NCBI GenBank assembly: GCA_028280065.1
Contig: JANQMN010000105.1
Location: 124,001-188,000, forward strand
Origin: Hahella sp.
GTDB lineage: Bacteria > Pseudomonadota > Gammaproteobacteria > Pseudomonadales > Oleiphilaceae
Reading direction: 5' to 3'
DNA: 64,000 bases
The notes beneath the pieces were generated by a model. The model saw only the letters and a program-made list of their open reading frames with translations. It was not told the origin of the DNA and did no database searches. Of this stretch, positions 13,120 to 50,877 are shown one piece after another. Both the position numbers and the translations under genes were made by a program. Every line of letters begins with the position of its first letter. Position 1 is the first letter of the stretch.

Positions 13120-14339
13120 TGCGAGTATTGTTGCACGATTACACAGGCCATGCTTTTCAGGCGGACCTTGCCAGGCAACTGGCATCACTGGGTCATACAG
13201 TTTTGCACCTGAGTTGTGCTTCTTTTCCAGCCCCCAAGGGCCTGTTATGCAGGCAACCCGATGACCCGTCAACACTGGACTTCAAGGCATTGGAAATGGC
13301 GGGGCGCTTTTCAAAATATGATTATTTCAGCCGTTGGCGCCAGGAAAAAAAATATGGGCGTAAACTATCGCAACTGATCGGAGATTGGCATCCGGATATT
13401 CTATTAATTTGTAATACGCCATTAGATCCGCTAGCTAGGGCTTTTGATTGTTGTGAGTCGCTAGCGATTCCTAAGGTTTTCTGGTTACAGGATCTCTACA
13501 GCGCAGCGATCCGGCGCTATTTGATGACTCGCTGGTGGGGATTTGGGCGACTTATCGGGTGGCGTTATGAGGTGCTGGAAGCGAAGCTTTGCCAGCGCGC
13601 TGATGCCCTGGTGCCGATTTCAGAGGGCTTTCTGCCAGAAATGAATCGTTGGCGTATAAGCAGAGAGAAGATAACCCTACAACCTAATTGGGCAGCGGTA
13701 AATGAAACGCCACAATTGGCAAAAGACAATGCTTGGTCACGACGGCGACAACTCTATAACAAAACCGTACTGCTTTATGCGGGTACATTGGGATTGAAGC
13801 ATGATCCAAAAATTTTTCTTAAACTTGCCCAGCATTTATCAACTGACCCTAATGTTAGCGTTGTGGTCGTGAGCGAAGGTGATTGTGCCGAATATCTCTC
13901 CAGTCATCGGCTGAATAACCTCATCGTTTTACCATTTCAGCCGGTACAGGAGGTTCCTGAAATGCTTGCCTCTGCGGATGTTTTGCTATCCTCTCTGGAG
14001 CCAGGCGCCGGAGTTTTTTGTGTGCCATCAAAGATTCTTAACCAATTGTGTGCAGGGCGATCTTTGCTGGCGGCGTTGCCAGCCGATAATGATGCCGCCC
14101 GAATGATACGACAGGCCGAAGCCGGTATAGTGGTAACTCCTGAAAACCATGATGCTTGGTTAAAGGCAGCGGAGCGACTGGTAAAAGACAAAGAACTACG
14201 TAGTAGATTTGGCAAAAATGCGCGTGCCTATGCCGAGCAGCACTTTGACAGCAGAAAAATAGCCAAGCGCTTCGAGCACGTGTTACAGAAGACGATAGCA
14301 GTCCGTGGGCGGAGCAATGAGCTGCAGGTTGCCAACTGA
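13119..14339 (+). CDS. Glycosyltransferase family 4 (WcaI-like)
   Basis: 406 residues, start ATG at 13119 overlapping the previous stop. A GT-B protein: N-terminal Rossmann start MRVLLHDYTGHAFQADLA, middle linker with LLYAGTLGLKHDP (donor domain beginning), and the C-terminal block SSLEPGAGVFCVPSKIL, in which E and the PSK motif bind the sugar nucleotide as in WcaI and related enzymes. It should transfer a sugar to the lipid-linked repeat unit in the cytoplasm. It sits in a tight run 11629-17085 and ends two bases before the next gene. Linkage and donor are unknown. Confidence 0.85.
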   Translation: MRVLLHDYTGHAFQADLARQLASLGHTVLHLSCASFPAPKGLLCRQPDDPSTLDFKALEMAGRFSKYDYFSRWRQEKKYGRKLSQLIGDWHPDILLICNTPLDPLARAFDCCESLAIPKVFWLQDLYSAAIRRYLMTRWWGFGRLIGWRYEVLEAKLCQRADALVPISEGFLPEMNRWRISREKITLQPNWAAVNETPQLAKDNAWSRRRQLYNKTVLLYAGTLGLKHDPKIFLKLAQHLSTDPNVSVVVVSEGDCAEYLSSHRLNNLIVLPFQPVQEVPEMLASADVLLSSLEPGAGVFCVPSKILNQLCAGRSLLAALPADNDAARMIRQAEAGIVVTPENHDAWLKAAERLVKDKELRSRFGKNARAYAEQHFDSRKIAKRFEHVLQKTIAVRGRSNELQVAN

Positions 14340-14341
14340 CT

Positions 14342-16237
14342 ATGTGTGGCTTTGTCGGAATCTGGGGACCAAAGTTTGCTGAACGCGCAGAGCTATTATC
14401 GAATATGGCTAAACTTATTTCCCATCGCGGTCCGGACGGTTGTGGTCGCTGGGAAAATGACAACCTGTTTCTCATACACTACCGACTGGCTTTATTGGAC
14501 ACCTCTGCTGCAGGGGACCAGCCGATGCAACTCCCTTTCGTAGAGAATGGAAAAGGACCGGTCATAGCATTTAACGGTACTATCTATAATTATCTCGAAT
14601 TGAGCGAAACTCTTTCTGCATTACCTGTCTCCACTGGAGATACCGAGGTTTTACTGCGTTTGTTGGCTGAAAAAGGTGTAGCGGCCTTGCCCTCGTTGAA
14701 TGGGACTTGGGCCTTTGCCTATTTTGATCCTCGAGAACAATCGTTGCTGTTGTGTCGCGATCGCTTCGGTATCAAACCACTTTACTGGCGGTTATGGGGC
14801 AGACACCTCGTCTTTGCATCTGAAATTCCTGCATTGTTAGATTTGGATACGTTGACAGGGCAAATCGACATCGGTGGTTCCAGGTCAAGCGGTCATCAAG
14901 ATGACTCCATTAATTCCAAAGCACTGTCCAGTTTTCTGGTTGACCGTCAATTAGATTACTCTACAGAAACTCTTTTCCACAATATATATCAGCTCCGGCC
15001 AGGTAGTTGGGTTAAGTTCAGGGCTGATGATTTCACCCGTGTTTATCAGCAGCGGCAATACTGGGATCTAGCTCCAGCAAGGGTAACTCCCCACAGGGGT
15101 GATGCCGATGAACTACTGGAGCTGATAGACGATGCTGTAAATATTAGGCTGCGGGCAGACGTCTCTATCGGTTATCTGTTATCGGGGGGACTGGATTCCT
15201 CAGCCGTGGTGAGTGCCGCCTCTCTGGCATTGGACGGTAAACTGCATGCCTATACTCTGCGCTACCCCCAGAACAATGACGAATCGGAACAGGCACATAA
15301 GATTGCTGAGCATTGCCGACTGCAGCGGCTGGAAACCGTTGAACCCGGCTCGCAGGATTTGGAACCGGACTTACGCAATTTATTGCGAGTCCAAGGAGAG
15401 CCGTTTGCCGATGGTTCCATGCTAGCTCACTACAAGCTAATGGCCGCAGTTGCTGCCAGTGGTCATCGGGTGGTGCTTGGAGGACAAGGTGGCGATGAAG
15501 CCCTAGCGGGCTACATACCAACTTTTTCGCGGGCCCGCGCTGCCGATTGCTTGTTACAGGGCAGCTTGGTTGAGGCTCGCAGTAATGTGATAAGCCTTGT
15601 CAAAGGTGGCCTCAACGCCTTATGGCACACTTTGCCGGCGCGTTGGCGCAGTGAAATGTACCAGTGGCGGGTTCGGAACAGAGTTGGACACTGGTTAAAT
15701 GGTTCATTGGTTGCTTTAAGTGAACCCCGTTATCAAAAAGAACATTTTTCTTGCCGACTCAAAGATTACATGTGTTCGGCTCGCAACCGTTGGACGCTTC
15801 CCGGTTTTTTGCATTATGAAGATCGCAATGCGATGCATCATGGGTTGGAAGCGCGCGCCCCTTTCATGGATTATCGTTTGATGCTTTGGGGGTTGAGCTG
15901 CCCTGACCATTTACTGGTGAAAAATGGTGTTGGCAAACAGATACTCAGATGCGCCCTGCTTAAGCGGTTACCGGAATCCATTGTCCGGGCTCCCCTTAAG
16001 CAAAGTATGCCGGCACCGGTACAGCATTGGATGCGCCATAATCTTGATTTGGTAATGAGTAGTCTGGAGATTGCCGAACACCGATTGGGTTTGGAGAACA
16101 GAAAGACTGTAGAAACTCGGTTCTTGTCTGCATGCAAAGGCCGTCAACCAGCTTTAGCCGCATACCAATGGGATCTTTTATGGCGGATTATGATTGCGGC
16201 ATTATGGGCTGACGAGTTCAAGGTTTCGTTGCGATGA
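14342..16237 (+). CDS. Asparagine synthase (glutamine-hydrolysing)-like amidotransferase, second copy
   Basis: 631 residues, slightly longer than typical AsnB. It starts MCGFVG with the catalytic Cys2, has SHRGPDG and the FNGTIYNY block, and a normal PP-loop SGGLDS at residues 281-286. The C-terminal part keeps the AsnB-type segment HYEDRNAMHHGLEARAPFMD. It should use glutamine-derived ammonia to amidate an ATP-activated carboxylate, here perhaps a uronic acid or amino-acid substituent of the EPS. It begins two bases after the glycosyltransferase and overlaps the next transferase by four bases (ATGA), so it is part of the same operon. Free asparagine synthesis remains possible. Confidence 0.87.
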   Translation: MCGFVGIWGPKFAERAELLSNMAKLISHRGPDGCGRWENDNLFLIHYRLALLDTSAAGDQPMQLPFVENGKGPVIAFNGTIYNYLELSETLSALPVSTGDTEVLLRLLAEKGVAALPSLNGTWAFAYFDPREQSLLLCRDRFGIKPLYWRLWGRHLVFASEIPALLDLDTLTGQIDIGGSRSSGHQDDSINSKALSSFLVDRQLDYSTETLFHNIYQLRPGSWVKFRADDFTRVYQQRQYWDLAPARVTPHRGDADELLELIDDAVNIRLRADVSIGYLLSGGLDSSAVVSAASLALDGKLHAYTLRYPQNNDESEQAHKIAEHCRLQRLETVEPGSQDLEPDLRNLLRVQGEPFADGSMLAHYKLMAAVAASGHRVVLGGQGGDEALAGYIPTFSRARAADCLLQGSLVEARSNVISLVKGGLNALWHTLPARWRSEMYQWRVRNRVGHWLNGSLVALSEPRYQKEHFSCRLKDYMCSARNRWTLPGFLHYEDRNAMHHGLEARAPFMDYRLMLWGLSCPDHLLVKNGVGKQILRCALLKRLPESIVRAPLKQSMPAPVQHWMRHNLDLVMSSLEIAEHRLGLENRKTVETRFLSACKGRQPALAAYQWDLLWRIMIAALWADEFKVSLR

Positions 16238-24245: not shown

Positions 24246-24428
24246 CTAGCCCGCATTTTTCACCAGACTTCTACTGCGGCCGCTTCATAGCACGCCCTCT
24301 CTAACGTTCACTCGGTCAGAGTGCGCGACGTACCGCCAAGTACGCCTGTGCGCTCTTCGGTCGCGAACGTCATAGATGACGCCCGCTTAAACGGTCTCGC
24401 TACAAACTCTGGTGAGTATGCGGGCTAG
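24246..24428. repeat. Long imperfect palindrome (MITE- or REP-like element)
   Basis: About 183 bases with nested inverted repeats. The outer arms, 24246-24270 and 24403-24428, read CTAGCCCGCAT...TCACCAGA on each strand. The inner arms around GAGTGCGCGACGTAC and GTACGCCTGTGCGCTC form a second stem. The whole unit can fold into one long hairpin. The right arm contains the TAG stop codon of the nucleotidyltransferase gene, so the element has moved into, or supplied, the end of that gene. No transposase is present, and no second copy was seen in the window. Confidence 0.65.
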
Positions 24429-25561
24429 CGGTTTGAACTTAATAACTGGTTCCCCAGCACGCGTAGTAATCTGGTAGGGAAGTATAACCATTTAAGTGAA
24501 GCGGGAAGAGAAATACACTTGTAATCCAGCGGATGAAGCGCGATAAATCCTTTGGCTAACTCTAAACCTATAGTCTTTCCCAGTATGGCTTGATGTAGGT
24601 TAAAGCTAAAACCCAACTCAGGTCTTTGGGGATAAAAGCTATTAGTCTCATAATGTCTTAGCATCATCTCCAGATATGAGTTGAACTCGTAGTCATTGAA
24701 ATCGGTTTGTTTGCCCAACCAAATCTTTTGCACCCTTTCGGAAAGTCGCCACAAGCGGTCGTGTTTATCGCCGTCCGGTAACTGTTTTAAGTCCGCCAGC
24801 CACTTGAGTTTAAAAAAAAGGTCTTTCAAGCCATGAGCTCGCATAAAGCGAGCGTTTTGCTTTGGACTTATCGCGTGAAAGTCGCTGGGCGTAATCGGTG
24901 ACTGAATGTCAGGTCGCTCATCGAATAGCCAGGCGTCGGATTTGCTCATAAAGCGCCAGTGTAAATCTATCGCTAATTCCGCGGGACGTCTTGATAGAGT
25001 GAGAGCATTATTGCCGTACCAAAAGTTCTGATTTCTTTCAATAGCGGCCAGCTCCAAAGCTGAAGGAGAATCGGATTGGATGGCATAATCCAGTTTCAGC
25101 AACGCATCCAATGCGGGTCGGATTTGCGCTGGTGAAATGATAATGTCTATGTCAGTAACGGGACGGAGCATTGAAGTGGGATTTTGCTGGCTATGCATTC
25201 GCGAGAGCGATTTTAGCAAAGCAAAAGTTACATGCCGCTGGTGAAGAGCAGAATGTATTTCTTTAATTTGTCTGGTTGCCAGCATCGAGCGAAGTTGGAG
25301 TTTTCTAAGATGCGGCGAGAATATCCTCTTTGACTCAGCAACCGACCAATGGGACCTTAGAAACTCTGCACATTGAGATGCCACACCATGGTGAATGGCC
25401 AGGGATAATAATTTGTCTTCCTTGATGCCCTGCCTAAGCCATTCAGCGGCCAGCCGATGTTTTCCGGGCTCAGGCAGATAGCTGATACAAAGCAGCAACA
25501 GTCTAAACTCGCGTGGAAGCTGATGCCTGTATATCAAGCAATCTGAATGTTCCCTGAGCAT
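24425..25561 (-). CDS. Nucleotidyltransferase family protein (NTP_transf_5 type), lasso-locus associated
   Basis: 378 residues from the ATG at 25561, which has AAGGG five bases upstream; a TTG at 25726 would add 55 residues of no family character. The core holds a long helical N-terminal part, then FALLKSLSRMH and RPVTDIDIIIS, the DxD catalytic pair of the nucleotidyltransferase fold, followed by LAIDLHWRFMS. This family recurs beside PqqD-like, HPr-kinase-like and asparagine-synthase-like genes in lasso-peptide and related clusters, where its reaction is not established; transfer of a nucleotide to a peptide phosphate has been suggested. The stop lies inside the palindrome at 24246-24428. 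Confidence 0.78.
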   Translation of the reverse strand: MLREHSDCLIYRHQLPREFRLLLLCISYLPEPGKHRLAAEWLRQGIKEDKLLSLAIHHGVASQCAEFLRSHWSVAESKRIFSPHLRKLQLRSMLATRQIKEIHSALHQRHVTFALLKSLSRMHSQQNPTSMLRPVTDIDIIISPAQIRPALDALLKLDYAIQSDSPSALELAAIERNQNFWYGNNALTLSRRPAELAIDLHWRFMSKSDAWLFDERPDIQSPITPSDFHAISPKQNARFMRAHGLKDLFFKLKWLADLKQLPDGDKHDRLWRLSERVQKIWLGKQTDFNDYEFNSYLEMMLRHYETNSFYPQRPELGFSFNLHQAILGKTIGLELAKGFIALHPLDYKCISLPASLKWLYFPTRLLRVLGNQLLSSNR

Positions 25562-26120
25562 TTGGCCCTTAATGATGTTTTTTGCTTTTGGCGGCCAGTA
25601 TAGCGGCACAAAACATTTTGGAGAAGCCGTGAGTCCATAAGATATAGGACCGTAAGAACCGCGCAAGATGGTGAGATCAAGGCCTTCGTAGCCAGACAAG
25701 CTTCGAGATAACGTAAAACCGAGCAAAGGGAAACGGAAAAAGGACGCATCAAATCTGCAGGGCTTCGAATCCCCTGCAGAAAAACCAGCGTCCTGGTTAA
25801 AAATTCAGCATTGTTTCATATATAGTAGATCGGCCTTTTTCGGAAATGACCTTAATTAGTTACTATCCTTGGCTATAATCCTTCTTATCACCACTCAATT
25901 GGTGCACACTGGCTCCCTTCATAGTCTAGGGGTGAGCTAATACAAAATTATTGTATAAGTTAAAAAATACTGCTTGGCGGCGGCCTGGAATTCAAATCTT
26001 CGAAAATAAAACGAGTGAACGGTAGATTGGGAAATTCTCCTGCCAACATGGTATGGAGAACGAGGTGCGGAAATGGCTTTATTAATGTTATACAAAGGCA
26101 ACTACTAAAAAGACTGCATA
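25562..26120. promoter_or_regulatory. Intergenic region before the PqqD-kinase-sulfotransferase operon
   Basis: About 560 bases (394 if the longer nucleotidyltransferase start is used). It holds the double-stem hairpin at 25741-25794 and should hold promoters for the minus-strand nucleotidyltransferase and the plus-strand operon starting at 26121. I checked all six frames for a second lasso-type precursor (Thr at -2, acidic residue seven to nine positions later) and found none. Confidence 0.35.
25741..25794. repeat. Double-stem inverted repeat
   Basis: The outer stem AGGACGC (25741-25747) pairs with GCGTCCT (25788-25794), and the inner stem CTGCAGGG (25755-25762) pairs with CCCTGCAG (25772-25779). 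On the minus strand the structure is followed by a T run and could act as a terminator or attenuator. The loop carries TTCGAATC, like a tRNA T-loop, but no cloverleaf surrounds it. Confidence 0.6.
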
Positions 26121-26402
26121 ATGAGTACTTCAGACAGCAAACAGTTGGTTCAGAATCCAGACTCATTAAGTGACACAATAGACGGTGAAGTAGTGCTTAT
26201 GAGCCCGGTGACAGACTCGTATTGCACTCTAAATGAGACTGGAGCTGCGATTTGGGATCTACTAAAAAAACCTATTACTATGAAGCGATTGGTTGAATGT
26301 CTTGCCAACGATTTTGGGATAGAAAACGACAAAATTGAAAGACAAGTGTTTTTATTTGTTAACCGGCTAAGTGAGGAAGGTCTTATTTTAGAAGTTAAGT
26401 AG
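26121..26402 (+). CDS. PqqD-like RiPP recognition element (RRE) protein, kinase-linked
   Basis: 93 residues with the PqqD winged-helix pattern: an N-terminal beta hairpin (DGEVVLMSPVTDSYCTLNETGAAIW, here split by turns), then a helix pair with MKRLVECLANDFG and a C-terminal helix ending in SEEGLILEV. Stand-alone PqqD proteins (B1 in lasso systems) bind the precursor leader and present it to the enzymes. This copy is 92 bases upstream of the HPr-kinase-like gene and away from B2, so it may deliver peptide to the kinase or sulfotransferase. A second RRE protein is at 32760. Confidence 0.85.
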   Translation: MSTSDSKQLVQNPDSLSDTIDGEVVLMSPVTDSYCTLNETGAAIWDLLKKPITMKRLVECLANDFGIENDKIERQVFLFVNRLSEEGLILEVK

Positions 26403-26494
26403 CAAGTGCTTCCTTTTTTTGCTCGGTCGGCGAGCAGGGAGTCGAGTCAGAAAACCCGCCAACTTTAGAAGTTTTATTGAATCATTTTTATTCT

Positions 26495-27436
26495 ATGTCC
26501 AAGTTTTGCTATAGAGCTTTAGATACTTACATAATCTCGGAGGTCGAGCTTCCGGAACTTTCCCCAGTAAAGGAAAGCGACGCTTTTGGAAGAAAGCCGA
26601 TTCGTTTGAGACTTGGTGAACTCCCGGATGAGCTTGAAAATGCGACGCTGAAAAGTAGCATTCATCAAACAAATGGTGATTCAGAGCACTTAGTTGTGTT
26701 GCCGGGTAAAGTGAAGATGCTAACGAAGCATGGTGACACCATTATCATAGACCCATCAAGCAGCTCGACTGAAGAAACAGGGGAGGAAAAGCAATGGCGA
26801 GTATTCGCTTTAGGTTCGGGATTAACATCAATTGCTTATCAGCGTGGGCTACTAGCAATGCATGCGAGTACCGTGAGATTACCTGGCAGTAACTGCGCAA
26901 CCGCAATACTAGGGCATACTGCCGCAGGAAAATCTACTTTGTGCGCAGCTTTAGTAGAAAGAGGTGCCGAACTGTTAAACGATGATCTGACGCCTATCCT
27001 TCTTGAGAATGGAGTTTTCTCTTCGCTCCCTGTTAGTAGAGCGATAAAACTGCATATTGATAGTCTGGTGGCTATCGGCAAATCAACGGTAAATTTAATG
27101 CCGGTTCGATCAAGTGTAAAAAAGTATCTCTTTTATCCACAAAATATTTGCTCGAAACCATTACCAATAGGGCGATTTATAATTATCGGGCAAGCAAGAA
27201 GTTGTCGCGAAGAAGGCAAAAAAACACTTGAGGGTGCGGCAGCATTTGCCCATATATCTAACTGTGTTCACAGGCGACGGGCTGCATCAGCTATGGGGTT
27301 GCGTGGAAGGATTTTTGCGCAGTGTATGCAAATAGCCAGATCAGTCCCGATAGAGACATTTTATTATAAGTACGACTTGGATAGACTATTACAGCTGGCA
27401 GAAAGTGTCATAGCGGATCAATGCGAAACGCAATGA
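26495..27436 (+). CDS. HPr kinase-like lasso-peptide kinase (PadeK type)
   Basis: 313 residues from ATG 26495 (TTG 26477 also in frame). The C-terminal half is an HprK/PckA-like kinase. LLAMHASTVRLPG precedes Walker A GHTAAGKST (about residues 140-148), and LLNDDLTPI supplies the acidic pair after it. It lacks the N-terminal domain arrangement of true HPr kinase, and no PTS genes are nearby. In paeninodin-type clusters the homologous kinase phosphorylates the C-terminal Ser of the precursor; the precursor here (30308-30472) does end in Ser. I infer the same reaction. It overlaps the sulfotransferase gene by 16 bases. Confidence 0.85.
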   Translation: MSKFCYRALDTYIISEVELPELSPVKESDAFGRKPIRLRLGELPDELENATLKSSIHQTNGDSEHLVVLPGKVKMLTKHGDTIIIDPSSSSTEETGEEKQWRVFALGSGLTSIAYQRGLLAMHASTVRLPGSNCATAILGHTAAGKSTLCAALVERGAELLNDDLTPILLENGVFSSLPVSRAIKLHIDSLVAIGKSTVNLMPVRSSVKKYLFYPQNICSKPLPIGRFIIIGQARSCREEGKKTLEGAAAFAHISNCVHRRRAASAMGLRGRIFAQCMQIARSVPIETFYYKYDLDRLLQLAESVIADQCETQ

Positions 27437-28326
27437 AAGTGCCTAATTCTCAAAAAATGGAGGGGCGTATTGCTCTGCTCGCAAGTTACCCAAAAAGTGG
27501 CAGTACTTGGACACGGTTATTTTTATCCGCTGCATCTTTGGTGAAGGAAGGTGGCTCTGAGTTCAATCTGAATAGGCGGCCTTATGCAGTTCCTTTTGCG
27601 TCCGACAGAAAGTTGATTCTGGATGAAACCGGGCTTGATACCAGCGAACTTACTCTCGAAGAATCGGCGATGGCACAACGCTGGGCGCTGCAGGAATTAT
27701 CTTTTTATGCCGCTTTCAAAGGCAGACGTACCGGGCTCAAAACCCATGATCGATGGTTAGTCGGCCAAGATTCTAAACCTGTTTTCGATTCAACCAATTG
27801 TGCAGCGATTGTTCTGCTGGTGCGGAACCCATTGGATATTGCAGGTTCACTGGCCCACCATTTGGGAATCAGTATTGATGGTGCTATTGAACAGTTGTGC
27901 GATCCGGAATTTTGCATGACACCGGGATTAGATGAGCAAGTTCATACACAAATCCCCTACATTCAAGGAACCTGGGGGAGTCACACCGCAAGTTGGTTGC
28001 ACGCCCCATTGCCACAAAGGATCGTAGTACGTTATGAAGATTTATTAGGCGACCCGGAAAAATGGTTTAGTAAGATTGCGATCTGCTTCGGCATAGAATT
28101 GACGCAGCAGGAATGCAAGCAAGCCATAGAGCATACGGGATTCTCAAAACTTCAAGATCTCGAAGCAAAAGATGGCTTCATCGAAAGGCCGGTAAAGTTA
28201 AACCAATTTTTCAGAAAAGGGCGTTTGGATGGCTGGAGAACCGAGCTCAACGATCGTCAAGTGCGAAAAATCATAGATAATTTCTCAGATATTATGTCCG
28301 AATTAGGCTATGAGATACCTAATTGA
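27421..28326 (+). CDS. Sulfotransferase (PAPS-dependent)
   Basis: 301 residues. The 5'-phosphosulfate loop is YPKSGSTWTR (residues 23-32), the 3'-phosphate motif is VRNPLDIAGSLAHHLG, KTHD holds the likely catalytic His, and the C-terminal FFRKGRLDGWRTEL matches the usual RKGxxGxW block that closes over PAPS. It should move a sulfonate from PAPS to a hydroxyl. The start at 27421 lies inside the kinase gene (alternative ATG 27433), so it is coupled to the kinase, suggesting the peptide as substrate. The EPS is the other possible acceptor. The 3' end overlaps the convergent cyclase gene by 19 bases. Confidence 0.88.
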   Translation: MRNAMKVPNSQKMEGRIALLASYPKSGSTWTRLFLSAASLVKEGGSEFNLNRRPYAVPFASDRKLILDETGLDTSELTLEESAMAQRWALQELSFYAAFKGRRTGLKTHDRWLVGQDSKPVFDSTNCAAIVLLVRNPLDIAGSLAHHLGISIDGAIEQLCDPEFCMTPGLDEQVHTQIPYIQGTWGSHTASWLHAPLPQRIVVRYEDLLGDPEKWFSKIAICFGIELTQQECKQAIEHTGFSKLQDLEAKDGFIERPVKLNQFFRKGRLDGWRTELNDRQVRKIIDNFSDIMSELGYEIPN

Positions 28327-30131
28327 GACTTAAGGTGACCCAAGTCGACTTGATCATGGCTCGGAGCGTGCAGCGCAAAAAATATTCCAAATCCTAGTCC
28401 GCGAGCTACTTTGCAAAACTCAAAATAATCGCTTTTAGCTATTGAATGTTGGTCTGAAGGGATACGCGCCGTTGCTGAAACGAGCGCTTCGATATCGAGC
28501 ATTTTCGAGACGCTGGAAATCTTGTTAATGCTCTGGAATATCTCTAGAAAAAGATGCCGGTCCCTCACGAACATCGAATGCCAATCTCCTGATTGCGATC
28601 CGCTTGGGATAATTTCGGGAGCTGAAAAGCCTACAAATCGCTCGTAAAGCCTCCGCGCAAACCAACGTGTTTCTCCTTCACGAAGCATGACATCTACAGG
28701 GAGTCGCCAACAAAACTCTCTAAAAGCAAAATCGGTGAATGGATAAACGACCGGTGTATACCCCAGCTCATCATTAACTGCATTCCGATAACAAAGTCTT
28801 TCAAAAGCATTGGTAAACAGTTTTGATTTATAAGCCTGCAAGTCAGGGTGTTGATAAGTTGACTCTTCTAAACGGCCGACTATGTCATCACCAGCTAGAA
28901 AAGACTTTCGAAAGGGATTAAATGAAGACCTCTCTTGCAGTAAGGATCTTGCTTGATTCCTCGAATTGTCAACGATTCGCCTTAACCAGGGCTTTATTCC
29001 GTAATTTAAAATGCTGGAGAAAAAGCTTGTAGACTGAGCCTGGGATGCTTCTTTCGCAAGCCGCATCCATAGACGAGTGTTGTTAGTAGGTGCAATACTG
29101 GCGAATTGTCGCAACCCGGCGGGGCTTATGGTTTCATTACCGAACTGCCCGCTAAACATGGCTCTACAGCCGAGTGCATGAGCTTTCGATTGAATCTCGT
29201 GATGCCACCACACCGCAGCGGGAGCAGGTATCACATCAGATAACGCCTCGATAAAATGCCATAGAATGGCGGGCAAGCTCTTGGTAGTGCTGGAAATTCG
29301 GGAATGAAAAATCTGGTCGAACCTACTGGCAACTTTTTCAGCTTGACTAAATTCACTCCAATCTTCATTGCGCTGATGGTTTGCACCACCCATCGAGGTT
29401 AGGTTTGCTTCAGTGCCGCAAACGGTATAGGCGTAGATGCGTTGGTTTGAGCCTGTATGTCTAGCGACTGCTCCGGCAATAATGCCGGAGTCCAGCCCTC
29501 CGGATAGCGTTAAGGCAACCGGTTTAGCGCTATCCAGGGTAGATAAACTTTCGCCTACCGCGCAAGTTATCAACTCCTCCGCCTCATCCAAAAGCTCATG
29601 GGCAGTAATGTTGCTGGTTTTCTCGAAAGAACGATAGATCTTCAACTTGGGTAACACGGGATAGTGATGAGTCTTAAACTTGCCGCCTGATCCAAATTCA
29701 ACGATTTCGCCAGGCTGAAGGCTCTTAACTCCGCTGTAGGGCGTGCTGTCGTCAGCGACGAGAAAACCATGCCCTCTTGCTGCTACCCAGGCGAAGTCTA
29801 GCCGTGCTGCGCGATTGGGGACTTCTTTAAAGTTGTCGAAGATGCGTAGGCTTGTTTTACTTTTCGTATAAAAGGCTTTGAAGGTAGAGTGGCGCCCACG
29901 GGCTAGCAGAACTCTACCCTGCTTTGGCTGGAAATAAACAAAGGTATGTTTGTCCAACTGCGGGTCCCAAATCTGTGGGGCAAGGCAGAGAGCATTTGCC
30001 GCCCTGCTAAACGCAGTATCAGATTCTGGTGAAAAAGACGATTCCGTCAGACTGAAAAGTTGATGGGGGGGAGTATTTCCTGCAGAGTCCGGACTATCGC
30101 TAGTTGAAAGGGGAAGTTCAATTGCTGCCAA
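28308..30131 (-). CDS. Lasso peptide cyclase (C protein, asparagine-synthetase-like)
   Basis: 607 residues, AsnB-like but without the N-terminal catalytic Cys: it starts MAAIELPLS, and the amidotransferase-like domain is degenerate. The synthetase domain keeps the PP-loop TLSGGLDSGIIAG (SGGLDS at residues 210-215). This is the hallmark of lasso cyclases, which adenylate the Asp/Glu side chain at core position 7-9 and join it to the new N-terminal amine while the tail is threaded. The precursor gene ends 176 bases upstream on the same strand. The two other AsnB-like genes in the window keep Cys2 and are EPS-type, so this is the only candidate cyclase. Confidence 0.88.
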   Translation of the reverse strand: MAAIELPLSTSDSPDSAGNTPPHQLFSLTESSFSPESDTAFSRAANALCLAPQIWDPQLDKHTFVYFQPKQGRVLLARGRHSTFKAFYTKSKTSLRIFDNFKEVPNRAARLDFAWVAARGHGFLVADDSTPYSGVKSLQPGEIVEFGSGGKFKTHHYPVLPKLKIYRSFEKTSNITAHELLDEAEELITCAVGESLSTLDSAKPVALTLSGGLDSGIIAGAVARHTGSNQRIYAYTVCGTEANLTSMGGANHQRNEDWSEFSQAEKVASRFDQIFHSRISSTTKSLPAILWHFIEALSDVIPAPAAVWWHHEIQSKAHALGCRAMFSGQFGNETISPAGLRQFASIAPTNNTRLWMRLAKEASQAQSTSFFSSILNYGIKPWLRRIVDNSRNQARSLLQERSSFNPFRKSFLAGDDIVGRLEESTYQHPDLQAYKSKLFTNAFERLCYRNAVNDELGYTPVVYPFTDFAFREFCWRLPVDVMLREGETRWFARRLYERFVGFSAPEIIPSGSQSGDWHSMFVRDRHLFLEIFQSINKISSVSKMLDIEALVSATARIPSDQHSIAKSDYFEFCKVARGLGFGIFFALHAPSHDQVDLGHLKSQLGIS

Positions 30132-30307: not shown

Positions 30308-30472
30308 TCAAGATTGCTTAAATCCCCCATCAGAGGGAGGAGTTGCTCCGATCTTCATAGTACGCTCAATTACATCAATGACTGTGAGCTTCGGTTCCAC
30401 CCATGCTTTTTTGCTTTTGTTTTCATTCGGGGCTCTGTCACTTTGCCTCATATCATTATTTTGACTATCCAT
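30308..30472 (-). CDS. Lasso peptide precursor (A), predicted core KIGATPPSDGGFKQS
   Basis: A 54-residue gene with ATG at 30472 and GAGG six bases upstream (30479-30482), ending TGA at 30308. The leader is polar, then shows W24, P27, L29 and D33 in WVEPKLTVIDV, the motif by which RRE proteins bind lasso leaders, and ends Thr38-Met39. Thr at -2 is the classic cleavage mark for B2. That gives a 15-residue core with Lys at 1, Asp at 9 (nine-residue ring), a six-residue tail and a C-terminal Ser. Paeninodin-type precursors share the Thr-Met end, Asp9 and terminal Ser. It lies directly upstream of the cyclase. An alternative ring from Gly42 to Asp48 would need a different cleavage site and is less likely. 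Confidence 0.87.
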   Translation of the reverse strand: MDSQNNDMRQSDRAPNENKSKKAWVEPKLTVIDVIERTMKIGATPPSDGGFKQS

Positions 30473-30502
30473 GGATTACCTCAATTAATATCAATAAACC
30501 TA

Positions 30503-30698: not shown

Positions 30699-31505
30699 TT
30701 GTTCGGCACGGGCACAGGAGTTTTAGCCACAATCGCTGCCATGGCAGGAGCTAAGCACGTTTATGCAGTAGAGTGCAGCGGCCTTGGGGGGCTGGCATCA
30801 CAGGTGTTTAAAAGAAATGGAGTTTCTAACAAGGTTACTGTCATAGAAGGGAGGTCCACGGACATCGAGCTGCCTGAAAAAGCGAGTGTTTTGGTCAGTG
30901 AGATTATCGGTAACGATCCGTTGGATGAGGGTGTCCTGCCGACCACCGCTGATGCTATTAGCAGGCTTCTTAAGCCTGATGCTCGGTTAATACCCTCTTC
31001 CATCGATATTATCGCTTTGCCTGTTAATGTCCCTGAAGAAGTGCTTCAGTCGAGATTGTTTACCGAAGCAGTCATGCAAAGGTGGAAAGAGCTTCATGAT
31101 ATTGATTTCTCTCCTTTTTTGGAGGCCTCCCGTCAGCAAGATCATGATTTGTTTTTAAACACTTATAAGGCAAAAGATTGGCTGGCACTGACAGATCCAA
31201 TAGTTTTACATCGCATTAGTTTAAACAATATTAGGGAGACTGAGTTTGATTCACTTCATCAGGTTACCGTATCGAATACTGGGCTAATCAATGGCATTAT
31301 TGTCTACTTCTGCTTAGGTCTGGCTGAATCGGTGGTTCTATCTATCGATCCCAGGGATGTTTCAAGTGACAACAGTTGGTTCAGTAAGACATGGATCCCT
31401 GGTGAATCAATCCCTGTTAAGGTGGGAGAGGAGATTGAACTGCGCTATATGTTTAAAAAGCGAAGGTCTACTTTTAATGTTGAGGTTGTTTCCCGGAAAG
31501 GTTAG
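30699..31505 (+). pseudogene. PRMT-like SAM methyltransferase, 5'-truncated
   Basis: 268 codons from a TTG at 30699. The protein begins within SAM motif I (FGTGTGVLATIAAMAGAKHVYAVE) and continues with SVLVSEIIGNDPLDEG, the double-E loop region of protein-arginine-methyltransferase-like enzymes, and a C-terminal barrel-like part. The frame is open upstream only to stops at 30657 and 30648, and the preceding residues (AIHSAVLL) look like a decayed version of the family's N-terminal helix. The helix and the YxxMLxD-type block that cover SAM are missing. It is probably inactive or a recent remnant; a functional short form cannot be excluded. Confidence 0.6.
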
Positions 31506-31684
31506 AGCCGAAAGACGTGTGGGGCCAGCTTTGACAAGATAGTTCTTTAAAGTCCGACCAATTTTGGATTGTTCGGGAGTGATGATCAACATCGCTGCTT
31601 TACTTTGCAAGATCCAAAGCGTTATCTGTCTATATTTCGTTATCCAATGTACTGCTACCAATATTGCCTGGGGGAGCTATCTGG

Positions 31685-32443
31685 ATGCTAAGAAGTCTTC
31701 TAGAGTCGTTGACGAGAAACTGGGTTTTCCGCAGGCGATTACCCGATGTAGTGGGAAGAGCTCCGATCTACGTCTCTGGCTCGGCTGGACTTAGGTACAT
31801 CTTTCGCCCGATGGATGCCGTTGACCCGAATCTATGCCAACTGGCAGTGGAGTTTGTAGATAAAGGGGATGTCGTCTGGGACATTGGAGCTAACATCGGG
31901 CTTTTTGCCTTTTCGGCGGCCAGTCTTTCAGGCTCTGAGGGGACTGTAGTTGCATTTGAACCGGACGCGTGGCTCGTTCAGCTTCTGCGTCGCTCCTGCG
32001 CTTTACAGCCAACTAACACTGCAACTGTGACTGTGGTTCCAGCGGCAGTCGCAAGCTCATGTGACTTACGGATGCTCAGTTTGGCCCGTCGTTCCCGGGC
32101 AGCGAACTTCCTACAGGGATATGGTTCCACTCAGACCGGTGGAGTTTCCGAGGTTCAGACAGTCGTTTCGCTCTCGTTGGACTGGATCGCGCAGCGTCTC
32201 CCGCCGCCCGATCTGGTCAAGATTGACGTCGAAGGCGCAGAGTTCGAAGTTTTAAAGGGGGCAGTGGACTTGCTGCGGAAGCATCGGCCGCGGATCCTTG
32301 TGGAGGTTTCCAAGCAAACATCCGGGTATGTCAGCATCCTACTGAAAGAACTCGGCTACGAGATCTTTGATGGTGAGTTACCAAAAGCGAATCGTCAACC
32401 CTTAGAACTGGCCCCTTGGAGTACGATTGCGCTTCCTGCTTAA
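31685..32443 (+). CDS. FkbM family SAM-dependent methyltransferase (lasso locus)
   Basis: 252 residues from ATG 31685, chosen because GGGGGAG lies eight bases upstream; a TTG at 31664 is also in frame. SAM motif I is VVWDIGANIGLFAFSAASL, followed by VVAFEPDAWLV, and the FkbM block is LVKIDVEGAEFEVLKGAVDL. Members methylate hydroxyl groups, usually on sugars but also on some natural products. It lies between the decayed PRMT-like gene and the B1-B2-D operon, so it may modify the lasso peptide or an EPS sugar. It is 182 bases past the PRMT-like gene and 316 before B1. It has little detectable similarity by eye to the FkbM protein at 23207 outside the motifs. Confidence 0.85.
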   Translation: MLRSLLESLTRNWVFRRRLPDVVGRAPIYVSGSAGLRYIFRPMDAVDPNLCQLAVEFVDKGDVVWDIGANIGLFAFSAASLSGSEGTVVAFEPDAWLVQLLRRSCALQPTNTATVTVVPAAVASSCDLRMLSLARRSRAANFLQGYGSTQTGGVSEVQTVVSLSLDWIAQRLPPPDLVKIDVEGAEFEVLKGAVDLLRKHRPRILVEVSKQTSGYVSILLKELGYEIFDGELPKANRQPLELAPWSTIALPA

Positions 32444-32759
32444 CCGGGTAATGAGGGGTATCTAATCCTCAGCCCACGATACCTTGCAGCGGGTTCACCT
32501 AAGGATTTTTACTCTCAGGATAGTAAAGATTGATCCAGCTATTTGCGGAGCATATTTGGCAACCCTAGCTGGAATCCCTTACAGGTGAGGGCTGCATTTC
32601 CAGGATCAGTTTAATTCAAAATATCGGGAAGTTGGCATAAGTGCTAAACTGATGTAACTAATTTTGATAGAACGTCACTTTAGTGCTCCAGTCAGTGTCT
32701 GTGACGTGTATCCATGACCTAGGGAACCATAGGTTACCTTGATGAGCGGAGGACCAATT
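32444..32759. promoter_or_regulatory. Intergenic region upstream of lasso B1-B2-D
   Basis: 316 bases without a credible gene. All short open frames on both strands were read; none has a Thr-x-core with an acidic residue at position 7-9. The region must hold the promoter for the B1-B2-D run. No strong promoter boxes or terminator were recognised. Confidence 0.35.
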
Positions 32760-33038
32760 GTGTTGAGTTTAAGCACGAAGATAAAGAAAAATAAAGATCT
32801 GGTCGAGGCAGAATTCGAGGATGAGTTGGTGATGATGAGCATTGAAAAAGGCTCCTACCTTGGTTTGGACTCAATTGGCACTAGAATTTGGCAGTTATTG
32901 GAAAAACCCCAGGAAGTGGTCGCGATTTGCGATCAATTACAAGAAGAATACGAAGTCGAGGAAGCGCAATGCCAGCAGGATGTGCTTAAGTTACTTGAGG
33001 ATATGGCCGAACAAAAAGTGATTCTGTTGGTTGATTGA
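32760..33038 (+). CDS. Lasso B1 protein (PqqD-like RRE)
   Basis: 92 residues. The start is set at GTG 32760 because GGAGG sits exactly seven bases upstream (32748-32752); ATG 32742 lies before that site. The fold shows the PqqD pattern: strands in DELVMMSIEKGSYLGLDSIGT, the helix IWQLLEKP that is the family signature, then VAICDQLQEEY and a last helix with LLEDMAEQKVILLV. In lasso systems B1 binds the leader and hands it to B2. The B2 gene follows with no gap (stop TGA directly followed by ATG), which is the usual B1-B2 order. Confidence 0.88.
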   Translation: MLSLSTKIKKNKDLVEAEFEDELVMMSIEKGSYLGLDSIGTRIWQLLEKPQEVVAICDQLQEEYEVEEAQCQQDVLKLLEDMAEQKVILLVD

Positions 33039-33569
33039 ATGGCTAGGCCAGAAGTGGTGAGTAAAGCGCTTAGAAAATGCCATTCTGCATGGGTGCTTTC
33101 CCGCAGAGAAAAACTCTGGTTTCTGTTTCTTTATCCGTACAGTGGCCTAGTAAGGATAGCGACTCTTTTAGTTCCTTTTAAATGGATGTCCCGTTATCTG
33201 GGGACACCAAACAGCAATCTTACCTTGTCGACTTTGGCCACCGACAGGCAAATATTGCTCGCACGTTCCATTGGACGCATCGTGGCCTTGACCGCAAAGT
33301 ATACACCCTGGGAATCCAACTGCTTGGTTCAGGCCATAATGGCCAGGACATTGCTGGGGTTTTATGGCATTCCCTATATCATGCACCTAGGAGTTCGCCT
33401 TACGGGTGAAGACTCTGATTCTTTGAAAGCCCATGCCTGGATCAAGGTGGGACCAGCTATTGTTGTTGGTGGCGGTAACCTGAAGGCGTATGGTTTGGTG
33501 GGTACATTTGTTGCCTCTGAAGTGATTGCTGATCATGAAAAAGTCACCCATCGCCAGTCTATGGTTTGA
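33039..33569 (+). CDS. Lasso B2 protein (transglutaminase-like leader peptidase)
   Basis: 176 residues. The papain/transglutaminase-like core has YTPWESNCLVQAIMA with the nucleophile Cys95, and KAHAWIKVG with His132, followed by a region where the family places its third catalytic acid. This is the standard B2 pattern (PF13471 type). B2 cuts the precursor after the residue following Thr(-2), freeing the amine that the cyclase joins to the Asp side chain. It directly follows B1, and the exporter gene begins 35 bases before its end. Confidence 0.92.
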   Translation: MARPEVVSKALRKCHSAWVLSRREKLWFLFLYPYSGLVRIATLLVPFKWMSRYLGTPNSNLTLSTLATDRQILLARSIGRIVALTAKYTPWESNCLVQAIMARTLLGFYGIPYIMHLGVRLTGEDSDSLKAHAWIKVGPAIVVGGGNLKAYGLVGTFVASEVIADHEKVTHRQSMV

Positions 33570-35301
33570 ATTCAGGACCTTTTACCGGTTCGCACCAAAA
33601 CTTCAGACGTTTATTTTGTCGTTAATGCTGATTCATGGCATCGCTGCCGGTATTGGATTGCTGTTCATTATTCCAATGTTGCAGATTATGGGCCTTGATA
33701 TTGGAATGCCGGCCGGAATAGAGGGTAACAGCGAGCTTACCGCTTTTGCCAATCGGATATTTGATGAGCTGGGACTAGAGGTAACGCTGGCCAATGTTTT
33801 AATCTCCTATGTCGTCATCGTCAGCGTTTTTGCCGCTGTCCGCTATCAATTGAGTGTGCAAACCACCCGCGTACAGCATGCTTATATTACCCACCTGCGC
33901 TGCAAACTTTACAGACTATTGTTGCATAGTCATTGGCCGTTTATTGCCGAACGTAAAATGTCGGACTTTATTCATTGCTTGTCGAGCCAAGTACAATCCG
34001 TGGGATCTTCAGCCAACCTGATGTTGACACTCCTAAGCCAGATACTATTGTCAGTGGTGATGCTGGTAATTGTACTCTTACTTTCTTGGGAAATGACTTT
34101 ATTGGCTTTGCTCGGTGCAGCAACTTTGCTGGCAATTCTGTTGCCGTTTAACCGAATCATATATGGTTCCGGAAAGCGTCAGTTGCTGGGCTATAAATCC
34201 ATTTTTCAGATGCTTTCTGAACAGCTAGCCAGTCTGAAAATGATTAAAAGTTACACCAACGAAAAAATCTGCCTGGAGCGGATGGATGAAACAAGCCACC
34301 AGATAGAGTTGCAACATTTGCGTCTGGCTCGATTCACCGCTGCTACACAATTGGTTTATCTGATAGGCGCTGTTGTCGTCTTCGGGATCTTTTTTTATGT
34401 GTCCCAGACATTCTTTGCCATGCCATTGGCGACACTCTTATTGCTGCTGGTGATTTTTTCACGAATTTTACCGCAGTTTTCTGCTATGCAGAGAAATTAT
34501 CAGCAACTTATGCATAAAGTGCCGGCATTTAATGATATTCGACAAATGGAGAATGATTGTAGGCAAGTGCAAGAAGCTGCTTTTTTTGGCAGCGCTTTAC
34601 AACTGAAGCATAGTATTCGCCTAACCGATTTGAGTTTTCATTATCCTAATAGCAATCAAAATGTTTTTGAAAACTTGAATATTACTATTCAACGTAATCA
34701 AACTGTCGCTCTGACAGGTCCCTCCGGATCGGGAAAAACCACGCTTGCCGATCTTTTGGCGGGCTTATACGAACCCTCGTCTGGCCAGGTTTGGGTGGAT
34801 GATCAGCCGCTGAATAGAGATACCCGGATCGCCTGGCGCAAAAGTATTGCCTACGTCAACCAGGAAGTCTATTTGTTTCACGATACGGTGAGGGCTAATT
34901 TGAGCTGGGTAACAGAGGGAAACGTAACTGATGTCGAACTTTGGCGAGTATTACGTCTGGCGGCAGCCGATCAGTTTGTCGCTCTCCTACCTGATGGCCT
35001 GGATACCCAGATTGGTGATCAGGGTATTAAATTGTCCGGTGGCGAACGGCAACGATTGGCTCTAGCCCGGGCTTTGCTGACTTCTCCCCAGCTACTGATT
35101 CTCGACGAGGCGACTAGTGCACTGGACCATGATAGAGAACAACAGATACAGTTAGCCTTACAGCAGCTTCAGGGATCCTTAACGATTGTAATTATTGCTC
35201 ACCGGAAGGCAACGATAGCACAGGCTAACCAACAAATTGATTTATCCCAATTACCCCGGCAGCAGACCAATAGTGCCGATCTGCCGATGTCAGCAGTTTA
35301 A
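33535..35301 (+). CDS. ABC transporter with fused membrane and ATPase domains (lasso D exporter)
   Basis: 588 residues from ATG 33535 (TTG 33526 in frame). Six membrane helices occupy residues 1-310, with a typical exporter coupling region (FQMLSEQLASLKMIKSYTNEK). The ATPase domain has Walker A GPSGSGKTT, signature LSGGERQRLALARALL, Walker B LLILDEATSALD and the switch His in IIAHR. No peptidase C39 domain is present, as expected when B2 cleaves the leader. It overlaps B2, so it is translated with it and is most likely the lasso peptide exporter and immunity pump. An EPS role is less likely. Confidence 0.9.
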   Translation: MKKSPIASLWFEFRTFYRFAPKLQTFILSLMLIHGIAAGIGLLFIIPMLQIMGLDIGMPAGIEGNSELTAFANRIFDELGLEVTLANVLISYVVIVSVFAAVRYQLSVQTTRVQHAYITHLRCKLYRLLLHSHWPFIAERKMSDFIHCLSSQVQSVGSSANLMLTLLSQILLSVVMLVIVLLLSWEMTLLALLGAATLLAILLPFNRIIYGSGKRQLLGYKSIFQMLSEQLASLKMIKSYTNEKICLERMDETSHQIELQHLRLARFTAATQLVYLIGAVVVFGIFFYVSQTFFAMPLATLLLLLVIFSRILPQFSAMQRNYQQLMHKVPAFNDIRQMENDCRQVQEAAFFGSALQLKHSIRLTDLSFHYPNSNQNVFENLNITIQRNQTVALTGPSGSGKTTLADLLAGLYEPSSGQVWVDDQPLNRDTRIAWRKSIAYVNQEVYLFHDTVRANLSWVTEGNVTDVELWRVLRLAAADQFVALLPDGLDTQIGDQGIKLSGGERQRLALARALLTSPQLLILDEATSALDHDREQQIQLALQQLQGSLTIVIIAHRKATIAQANQQIDLSQLPRQQTNSADLPMSAV

Positions 35302-49509: not shown

Positions 49510-50877
49510 TCACTCTAAAGCTCGGGTAACCCGATTCCGGCCGTCTCTTTTTGATTGATACATAGCCAAGTCTGCGCGTTTTAAGGCGCAATCGATTAAC
49601 TTCTCTCCGGTTAATAGTTCGGAAATGCCGATGCTGACTGTGATGCCTAATTTTACATTGAGTGTATCGAATCTGGTTTCAGCGACCTTTTCACGAATCC
49701 TGTCGGCGACTTTTTCGGCTGCGGCAATCTTGGTACCGGGTAATAGAATGGCAAACTCTTCACCACCAATTCGGCCCATAACATCTTGTTGCCTTAAACA
49801 TTCCTGACAGGTGTGGGTGAAAAAGGTCAAGACTTCGTCACCTATGGCGTGGCCGTGCATGTCATTAATACTCTTAAAATCATCAATATCCAGCAACATA
49901 ATGGAAGTATAGCCGGCTACCCGATTACTTCGGGCTAGTTCCGTATTCGCCAGATGAAGAAATTCCGCTCTGTTAAGAACGCCGGTGAGAGAATCTCTTG
50001 TCGCGAGTATCTGCAGTTTGCGATTGGCTTCATCGAGATTTTCGGTACGTTCTGTGAGTTCCTGATTCAGCTGTTCCTGTAGCTTCAACGCGTTTTCAAT
50101 TTCTTCAGTCCTTTCTTCTACGCGGGTTTGCAGGCTTAAATTTAGTTCTCTCAGCGTCTGTTCCGCGTCATCCCGCTCTTGTTTGGTATGCCTTAGCTTT
50201 TGGATCATGTTGTTGTAGGCTCCTTTCAATGTCGCGAGTTCATCTTTGTAGGTGATCCCGCCGGCAACCTCGGCATTTTCAAGGTTGTCGAAGTCTAAGC
50301 GCTTGGTCGTATCCGTCAGGAGGGTGAGTGGTTTGCTGAGTAGTCTTTTGCCGAAGTAGGAGAATATCAACCAGAGCGCCAGAGTTTTCACAAACGCATT
50401 GATGATTATGAAAATAAGGCTGAGTTTTACCCGATCGAACACGACCCTGTTGCTGGAATACAAAGTCAAGCTCCCCAGGTACTTTTCGATAGCTATGTCC
50501 GGTCCGCGATAGATTAGCGAGCCTTGAAACTTAATAGGCTTTTTCCGTTTGTCTTTGCCATAAGATTCCTGGAAGTTACCTAAACCCATGACCAGAACAC
50601 CCTTATGATCCACTACCTTTACCCCTGAAATCGTGGGGATTTTCATTGCTCCCTGTAGAGAGGATTTTAATTGTTCATCGTCGAATTCCCATCTGGATAG
50701 CACCACGCTTTCGGAAAAAGAAATGAAATAGCCTTGCAGCTCATCGATAATCGAACTTTCCGTATCCTGGTAGGTTGCAATGATATGCATCGCGGTGACT
50801 GAGAGGGCGATAAGCAGATACAGCGAGAAGACGACGGTGAGCAGGCGGCTTGTAATGGATGAGGTAGCGGATTTCAT
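49510..50877 (-). CDS. Diguanylate cyclase with periplasmic sensor, HAMP and GGDEF domains
   Basis: 455 residues. A membrane helix at about 10-32, a periplasmic region to about 150, a second helix at about 155-177, HAMP, then a coiled coil (KQERDDAEQTLRELNLSLQ and on) and the catalytic domain with DSLTGVLNRAEF, the active-site GGEEF in GRIGGEEFAILLPG and AMYQSKRDGRNRV. It makes c-di-GMP. The start lies six bases after the stop of the periplasmic binding protein gene upstream (50884-51729), so that protein is its likely ligand sensor. Confidence 0.92.
   Translation of the reverse strand: MKSATSSITSRLLTVVFSLYLLIALSVTAMHIIATYQDTESSIIDELQGYFISFSESVVLSRWEFDDEQLKSSLQGAMKIPTISGVKVVDHKGVLVMGLGNFQESYGKDKRKKPIKFQGSLIYRGPDIAIEKYLGSLTLYSSNRVVFDRVKLSLIFIIINAFVKTLALWLIFSYFGKRLLSKPLTLLTDTTKRLDFDNLENAEVAGGITYKDELATLKGAYNNMIQKLRHTKQERDDAEQTLRELNLSLQTRVEERTEEIENALKLQEQLNQELTERTENLDEANRKLQILATRDSLTGVLNRAEFLHLANTELARSNRVAGYTSIMLLDIDDFKSINDMHGHAIGDEVLTFFTHTCQECLRQQDVMGRIGGEEFAILLPGTKIAAAEKVADRIREKVAETRFDTLNVKLGITVSIGISELLTGEKLIDCALKRADLAMYQSKRDGRNRVTRALE

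Follow-up and report, generated by a model that had tools for sequence, protein, structure and literature searches.

Paeninodin itself carries a Met at position −1. In the passages cited here (PMC13381572, PMC9266682, PMC10368454), paeninodin-like systems (PadeA/B1/B2/C/K; PbaA/PbaB1) combine a WxxPxL leader, a Thr at −2, a discrete RRE and B2, and a C-terminal Ser with an HprK-like kinase, an NTP transferase, an MsbA-like exporter and a setting among polysaccharide genes. According to the cited part of PMC13381572, paeninodins are restricted to Bacillota, and paeninodin-like clusters lie in Bacilli amid polysaccharide genes. A cluster type in which lasso genes come with a kinase gene and even a sulfotransferase gene is already known, and sulfotransferases beside lasso genes are noted in the cited passages without a function (PMC4289311, PMC8498205). 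Our literature search, which covered passages of one paper collection, found no report of a sulfated lasso peptide.

The locus described here lies in a stretch of 64,000 nucleotides of Hahella sp. (assembly GCA_028280065.1, contig JANQMN010000105.1, positions 124,001 to 188,000), hereafter the window. It displays the traits listed for the subfamily in the cited part of PMC13381572 (WxxP leader, HprK-like kinase, NTP transferase, MsbA-like exporter), and differs from paeninodin-like systems by an added sulfotransferase and second RRE, a 15-residue core, a divergent cyclase and a model score below cut-off. Most named relatives of its gene set are Pseudomonadota, and the cluster probably stands outside Bacillota, unlike the restriction that PMC13381572, in the part cited, gives for paeninodins. 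Judged by its description, the SyanA/SyanK cluster of Sphingobium yanoikuyae is likewise proteobacterial, with an HprK-like kinase and a C-terminal Ser as target, whereas the cited passages of PMC9266682 and PMC8498205 name no sulfotransferase in it. The Bsf cluster of Bradymonas sediminis is also Gram-negative and comprises precursor, B1, B2, C, D, kinase and nucleotidyltransferase genes, the B1 protein speeding up the kinase; however, its leader is of the YxxPxL type, Ile stands at −2 and phosphorylation occurs at Ser3 (PMC10368454, passages cited). The linear polyphosphorylated peptides share the kinase, NTP transferase, RRE, MsbA-like exporter and polysaccharide setting, including loci with two RREs, but have a YxxP leader, a SipW-like peptidase and no cyclase of their own (PMC13381572, passages cited); the window leader has a Trp and a cyclase is present, which sets the locus apart from them. 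Nearly the whole window gene set recurs on plasmid NZ_CP139716.1 of Thalassobaculum sp. OXR-137 (L066), with two PqqD/RRE genes, a cyclase-like gene, a kinase gene followed by a sulfotransferase gene, B2, ABC, nucleotidyltransferase and two glycosyltransferase genes and a WxxP frame ending in Ser; it differs by its two kinases, its gene order and a predicted core that has no acidic residue.

We report here the small frame 30308–30472, its leader, the surrounding gene set and the recurrence of similar combinations in other genomes. With a probability of about 0.87, this frame would encode a lasso-type RiPP precursor, of the kind with a C-terminal serine and a kinase gene. This reading, already put forward in a preliminary description of the sequence, is the most likely one because of the frame's first rank with a profile from which the window was excluded, its feature set, the comparable frames near related cyclase genes and the gene set around it. 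The precursor is most likely paeninodin-like with a C-terminal Ser, though the curated model scores it below cut-off. With this frame the lasso gene set gains an exact candidate substrate, one that the curated paeninodin model misses, and the pathway can be rebuilt and the mass of the product looked for.

A 54-codon frame with a WxxP leader

The precursor frame lies at 30308..30472 on the minus strand and starts with ATG in the context ttGAGG-taatcc-ATG, the putative ribosome-binding site GAGG (30479..30482, −) standing six bases upstream. Its 54-residue product is MDSQNNDMRQSDRAPNENKSKKAWVEPKLTVIDVIERTMKIGATPPSDGGFKQS. The leader (residues 1–39) contains W24, P27, L29 and D33 within WVEPKLTVIDV, and T38-M39 precede K40, so that Asp48 is core position 9. 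The predicted core K40–S54, KIGATPPSDGGFKQS, would form a ring between Lys1 and Asp9; cut site and ring are deduced from the rule that Thr stands at −2 (T(−2) rule) and from the relatives. On re-reading the sequence, we recovered every element that the preliminary description had given for this gene: its length, strand and ribosome site with six-base spacing, the W, P, L and D of the leader, Thr-Met at −2/−1 and, as far as its placement is concerned, Asp9. The masses also agreed with our recomputation, which gave 1488.757 for the linear core, 1470.747 after loss of water, 1550.713 with one phosphate and 1550.704 with one sulfate. The frame thus displays the [Y/W]xxP leader, the Thr at −2 and an Asp or Glu at core position 7–9 that mark the precursor of a lasso cluster, and Ser54, together with the four residues His, Lys, Asp and Asp of the neighbouring kinase, fits the pattern of a putatively phosphorylated lasso peptide.

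A search with lasso leader models, proposed earlier as a check, gave a divided answer. The NCBIfam paeninodin model NF033524 aligned to residues 21–42 with 14.0 bits (E 0.031), below its cut-off of 27 bits, whereas a home-made profile of the relatives' precursors picked the frame. When NF033524 was applied to five relatives' precursors, those of L022 (16.3 bits) and L023 (15.9 bits) also remained below 27, and those of L021, L015 and L016 were unmatched. The precursor had no match among PDB chains or, by tblastn, among plasmids, and promoter and terminator scans of the window returned no more matches than in shuffled sequence. Besides the NF033524 score, several points were counted against a lasso-type precursor: no homologue is close enough for a codon-level test of 30308–30472, the 15-residue core is short, Lys at core position 1 has no certain counterpart among the 23 further candidate frames described below, the cyclase is shortened and divergent and scores higher with a general than with the lasso model, a PRMT-like neighbour is truncated and the B2 homologues of the genus stand alone.

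Comparable frames and the kinase–sulfotransferase pair in other genomes

Direct searches with the cyclase found no relative in the genome contig set or in plasmids, and in the class sample reached 2 of 368 other genomes, one of which (L006) looks like an ordinary AsnB, the other (L013) being a lasso locus. As these searches gave almost nothing, B2 was used as bait, and was found in 5 of the 368 other class genomes, 10 of 397 others in the phylum sample, 7 named genome-contig loci and 8 plasmid records, one of which was read in detail (L066). The cyclase profile then used to count loci combined the window cyclase with ten cyclases from lasso loci and one AsnB-like protein, and a match to it does not by itself identify a lasso cyclase. 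A WxxP or YxxP candidate turned up in all but two (L019 and L063) of the 17 loci that carry a cyclase-like gene, window included, giving 15. These candidates are comparable frames, mostly not recognisable orthologues; only that of L022, from Shewanella, matched by BLAST (39.6% identity over 48 residues, E 1.6e-5 among the frames of that locus). The leaders of the two Shewanella frames differ from each other with a dN of 0.04–0.07 and a dS of 0.46–0.74. As to the conservation asked for beside cyclase and B2 genes, comparable frames were seen at cyclase-like loci but not within the genus, in which four of six other genomes have a B2 homologue (45–47%) and the other two have none: beside these four (L054–L057; for L055, over 2.5 kb on one side) no precursor, cyclase, RRE or kinase was found. 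The two of them that were tested scored 89.3 and 87.5 bits with the B2 model NF033537. Near the L054 copy, the only one with annotation, lie pirin, LysR and PhoD genes.

When a leader profile was run over 24 loci, window included, the candidate scored first in 13 (window, L015–L017, L021–L025, L036, L040, L042 and, in a tie, L043) and second in L013 and L041; in the other nine (L014, L018, L019, L020, L037–L039, L044, L045) no candidate came up, and among them only L019 has a cyclase match. Top scores were stronger in the window, L016, L017 and L021–L023, and weak (E 0.07–0.9) in L015, L024, L025, L036, L040, L042 and L043; the candidates of L013, L041, L043, L067 and L068 were taken by motif, with weak or nil profile support. 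Altogether 24 candidate frames were collected from 19 loci, 21 of them with a Thr at +13/+14 from the aromatic residue and three without a Thr. By the T(−2) rule, an Asp or Glu falls at core position 8 or 9 in 14 frames, at 10 in two, at 11 in one (L025) and at 12 in three (L040), one frame having none (L066). Eleven cyclase-bearing loci have a Trp-type candidate, which ends in Ser in ten (not L024) and has the Thr at +13/+14 in nine (not L013 and L024). For part of the loci, the small-frame lists showed only frames with Trp or a C-terminal Ser, and the list from the sulfotransferase bait only those with a C-terminal Ser; for this reason, neither the Tyr-type candidates nor the L067 pair count as evidence for the Ser.

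Three further arrangements were seen in these loci. L040 carries, at 13779–14459 (−) beside a cyclase and a kinase gene, three precursor-like WxxP frames in tandem; their cores are very basic, all end in VGS and have no acidic residue before core position 12. In the frames of L015 (16560–16715, −) and L016 (9886–10098, +), the only acidic core residue by the T(−2) rule is a Glu at position 10, so either these precursors would be cut one residue further on or their rings would be larger than usual. A second tandem precursor-like frame, WSSPVLLKMRLMETSNGVGLGADAGGFDDLPS, with Asp8 and a C-terminal Ser, lies at 3653–3820 (−) in L017.

The last 16 bases of the window kinase frame (26477..27436, +) overlap the sulfotransferase frame (27421..28326, +). 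Used as bait, the sulfotransferase was found in 4 of 368 other class genomes and in 4 plasmid records, and a kinase gene lies directly 5' of the sulfotransferase gene (overlap of 1–16 bases or gap of at most 35) in 12 of the 13 sulfotransferase loci examined: the window, L015, L021, L022, L041, L043, L063, L064 and L066–L069. The exception is the distant L065 (sulfotransferase E 1.4e-17), which gave no kinase match. Larger sulfotransferase-like proteins (one each from L036 and L041 being of this sort), another annotated sulfotransferase of L067, a second place in NC_017958.1 and 7 of the 8 plasmid records found by B2 are outside this count. Nine of the 12 loci also have a cyclase match. The best place in each of the four sulfotransferase plasmid records yielded six small WxxP frames in all, each with Thr at −2 and a C-terminal Ser (the two from L067 came from a list pre-filtered for that Ser), and five of the six have an Asp or Glu at core position 8 or 9. 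There was no convincing precursor frame in the class genomes L064 and L065 and none in the stretch of L063; the L016 frame belongs to the same genome and contig as L063, some 25 kb away. Where a sulfotransferase locus has a precursor, the core spans 13–17 residues by the T(−2) rule, L043 being without the Thr; some of these cores have hardly any bulky residue, that of L022 having nothing larger than Leu and Lys, and others (L015, L069) have Phe or Tyr. A similar combination of WxxP leader, 13–17-residue core ending in Ser and kinase gene running into a sulfotransferase gene recurs in named gamma- and alphaproteobacterial loci, from Shewanella, Thalassobaculum, Tistrella and a Hyphomicrobiales bacterium.

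Given the pairing of the genes, the sulfotransferase may well act on the end that the kinase modifies. A further step, which we regard as tentative and rather doubtful, would be that the two enzymes of a dedicated kinase–sulfotransferase pair work one after the other at the C-terminal Ser (or at the phosphate or phosphohexose it carries) to give a lasso peptide with a sulfated C-terminus, whose bulky charged end would be the plug that holds the short tail threaded. In principle, a charged end group could serve as such a plug. The recurring pair and the putative sulfation are the part worth following.

Some of these observations bear on the architecture of the product. The precursor could be the right one and yet give a branched-cyclic or linear phosphopeptide, or a seven-residue ring from Gly3 (GATPPSD). 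In the 15-residue core, with its tail of six residues, the bulkiest residue is F12; among the 24 candidate frames, 10 are without an acidic residue at 8 or 9 (T(−2) rule; these include the three that have no Thr); in L064, L067 and L069, kinase and sulfotransferase stand together and about 19 kb gave no cyclase match; and linear polyphosphorylated peptides exist (PMC13381572, passages cited). However, the window has both a cyclase and a B2, and its Asp9 with Thr at −2 fits 14 of the 24 frames collected; moreover, Gly as core residue 1 would place the Thr at −4. We regard a different architecture as possible, though not probable.

Gene neighbourhood and predicted pathway

All the partners named in the preliminary description (two RRE proteins, B2, cyclase, exporter and kinase) lie within about 5 kb of the precursor frame and are supported by profiles; its gene list left out the sulfotransferase and an NTP_transf_5 gene (24425..25726, −; Pfam), although a sulfate form had been allowed for. 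Gene coordinates run from the earliest start codon, and overlaps accordingly refer to the longest possible frames. Profiles further identify a FkbM methyltransferase gene at 31664..32443. Farther out in the window are genes for a carbamoyltransferase, a sugar transferase, another FkbM protein and a glycosyltransferase, giving polysaccharide-type surroundings, and one flanking gene is present in all seven genomes examined from the genus.

RRE1 (26121..26402, +) lies 5' of the kinase gene and RRE2 (32739..33038, +) directly 5' of B2; the pair supplies the RRE (B1) component of a lasso cluster. They scored 55.8 and 73.8 bits with the Pfam PqqD model (cut-off 23.4), and 65.5 and 78.3 bits with the lasso PqqD model NF033536, missing its cut-off of 80. 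Among solved lasso B1 proteins, RRE1 matched PbaB1 (9x90) best (E 3.9e-11), and RRE2 matched TbiB1 (1.6e-12) and PbaB1 (1.9e-11). Aligned by eye, Q79 and F83 of PbaB1 correspond to Gln75 and Phe79 in RRE1 and to Asp81 and Leu85 in RRE2. As the hydrogen-bonding residues of the RRE pocket are not strongly conserved (PMC13381572, passages cited) and PadeB1 is weakened by D79A (PMC5067487), we made no call from the pocket residues on which RRE binds the Trp leader. By analogy, a B1 protein that can speed up a kinase (PMC10368454, passages cited) offers a possible use for the second RRE.

The B2 leader peptidase, transglutaminase-like (33039..33569, +), scored 76.1 bits with NF033537 (cut-off 33), as expected for a lasso cluster, and is followed by the MsbA-like ABC exporter, the D protein (33526..35301, +). 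B2 retains its motif residues Cys95 and His132, and the sulfotransferase carries YPKSGSTW; we take both to be catalytic motifs. RRE-B2-ABC trios like that of the window occur in L036–L039 (B2 45–48%; the L038 stretch covers only the start of ABC), and no cyclase or kinase matched in these stretches. For the HprK-like kinase, the best model was TIGR04352, at 29.9 bits against a cut-off of 200, with no match in Pfam or among PDB chains. H129, K152, D169 and D170 are invariant in the five kinases aligned, and residues of these types (His, Lys, Asp, Asp) are named as essential in PMC9266682 (passages cited).

The gene set points to the following pathway. One of the RRE proteins would bind the WVEPKL stretch of the leader, and the kinase would phosphorylate Ser15 of the core on the linear precursor, by analogy with PadeK and with paeninodin and pseudomycoidin (PMC9266682, PMC8498205, passages cited). 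The sulfotransferase encoded right after it would modify the same end, as might the NTP_transf_5 protein, which may add a hexose to the phosphate as PsmN does in pseudomycoidin (PMC9266682, PMC8498205, passages cited). RRE and B2 would then remove the leader by a cut after Met(−1), one residue past Thr(−2); the cyclase would activate Asp9 and close the amide to the Lys1 amino group, trapping the tail GGFKQS, and the ABC protein would export the product.

The macrolactam cyclase (28308..30131, −) is of the asparagine-synthase type (PF00733, 67.9 bits, cut-off 21). Its 607 residues include a shortened glutaminase-like N-terminal part, with SGGLDS at residue 210 compared to 224–277 in eight others (seven from lasso loci, one AsnB-like); the L013, L021 and L022 cyclases have a variant of this motif. 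It aligned with cyclases of other lasso loci at only 21–27% identity and, among PDB chains, matched only a hydroxyamidotransferase (E 0.034). The lasso cyclase model NF033535 gave 39.8 bits (cut-off 525), and the general asparagine synthase model gave more, 53.4 bits. The protein is placed among lasso cyclases through its fold family and its neighbours, and would not be called as one on the lasso-specific model by itself. On the other side of the precursor frame, a PRMT/PrmA-like methyltransferase gene (30699..31505, +) starts at its SAM-binding motif and is without its N-terminus when compared with the L044 homologue. Because of this missing start, we consider the locus to be rearranged, with decay possible.

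The truncated PRMT-like gene, the shortened cyclase and a possible leader-only relic 5' of RRE1 (see below), along with a cyclase search at E 1e-10 that found nothing in 145 further relatives of the host, would all suit a true former precursor whose pathway no longer works. We consider such a remnant unlikely, as the core genes are open and keep their motifs (SGGLDS, B2 Cys95/His132, kinase H-K-D-D, sulfotransferase YPKSGSTW), and a similarly short cyclase (578 aa) accompanies two precursor-like frames in L017.

A list of genes linked to halotolerance includes, under cluster numbers close to one another, lasso B2, nucleotidyltransferase, sulfotransferases, PqqD and asparagine synthase; in the passage cited they are not discussed as lasso genes that belong together (PMC10040529).

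Frequency of the feature set within the window

As a control, 120 dinucleotide-shuffled windows were used, with frames of 25–120 aa in both cases; the features were set after the sequence and its relatives were known, so the count is not blind. The window has 20 frames with a [WY]xxPx(hydrophobic) stretch (shuffle mean 27.4), four of which also have a Thr 13–14 residues on (0.95) and three of these an acidic residue at core position 7–10 (0.2). Only 30308–30472 also has a C-terminal Ser (0.008 per window); the full set thus occurs once in the window and once in total over the 120 shuffled windows, or 24 times when the Ser is left out. The other two of the three, 24973–25086 and 49653–49784, end in other residues.

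Out of 2446 translated pieces, 30308–30472 came first (E 8.7e-5; the runner-up had 0.73) with a profile of 13 precursor candidates from other genomes, window excluded, and a leader-only leave-one-out profile gave E 3.4e-5 (next 0.22); the training precursors, from 12 loci, had been picked by a loose leader motif, so these tests are not blind either. Among the other small frames of the window, none came close in score, and the better-fitting small gene that would have spoken against the preliminary description did not appear. That 30308–30472 is a chance open frame, the real precursor lying elsewhere, for instance 5' of RRE1, is very improbable: a loose leader-like frame does exist there (25951–26025) and two frames match in all but the Ser, but the former is without a core, with a profile E of 5.1 against 8.7e-5, and the shuffle mean for the full set is very low.

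That leader-like frame came up when the regions 25727–26140 and 32441–32760 were read in six frames for a second precursor that would go with the second RRE; it was the only one, and was not retained as such. It spans 25951..26025 (+) and encodes 24 residues, MYKLKNTAWRRPGIQIFENKTSER, in which the leader-like stretch WRRPGIQIFENKT is followed by hardly any core, which makes it a possible relic. It sits 5' of RRE1, the place of the precursor in the two Shewanella loci, and may be what remains of a second precursor.
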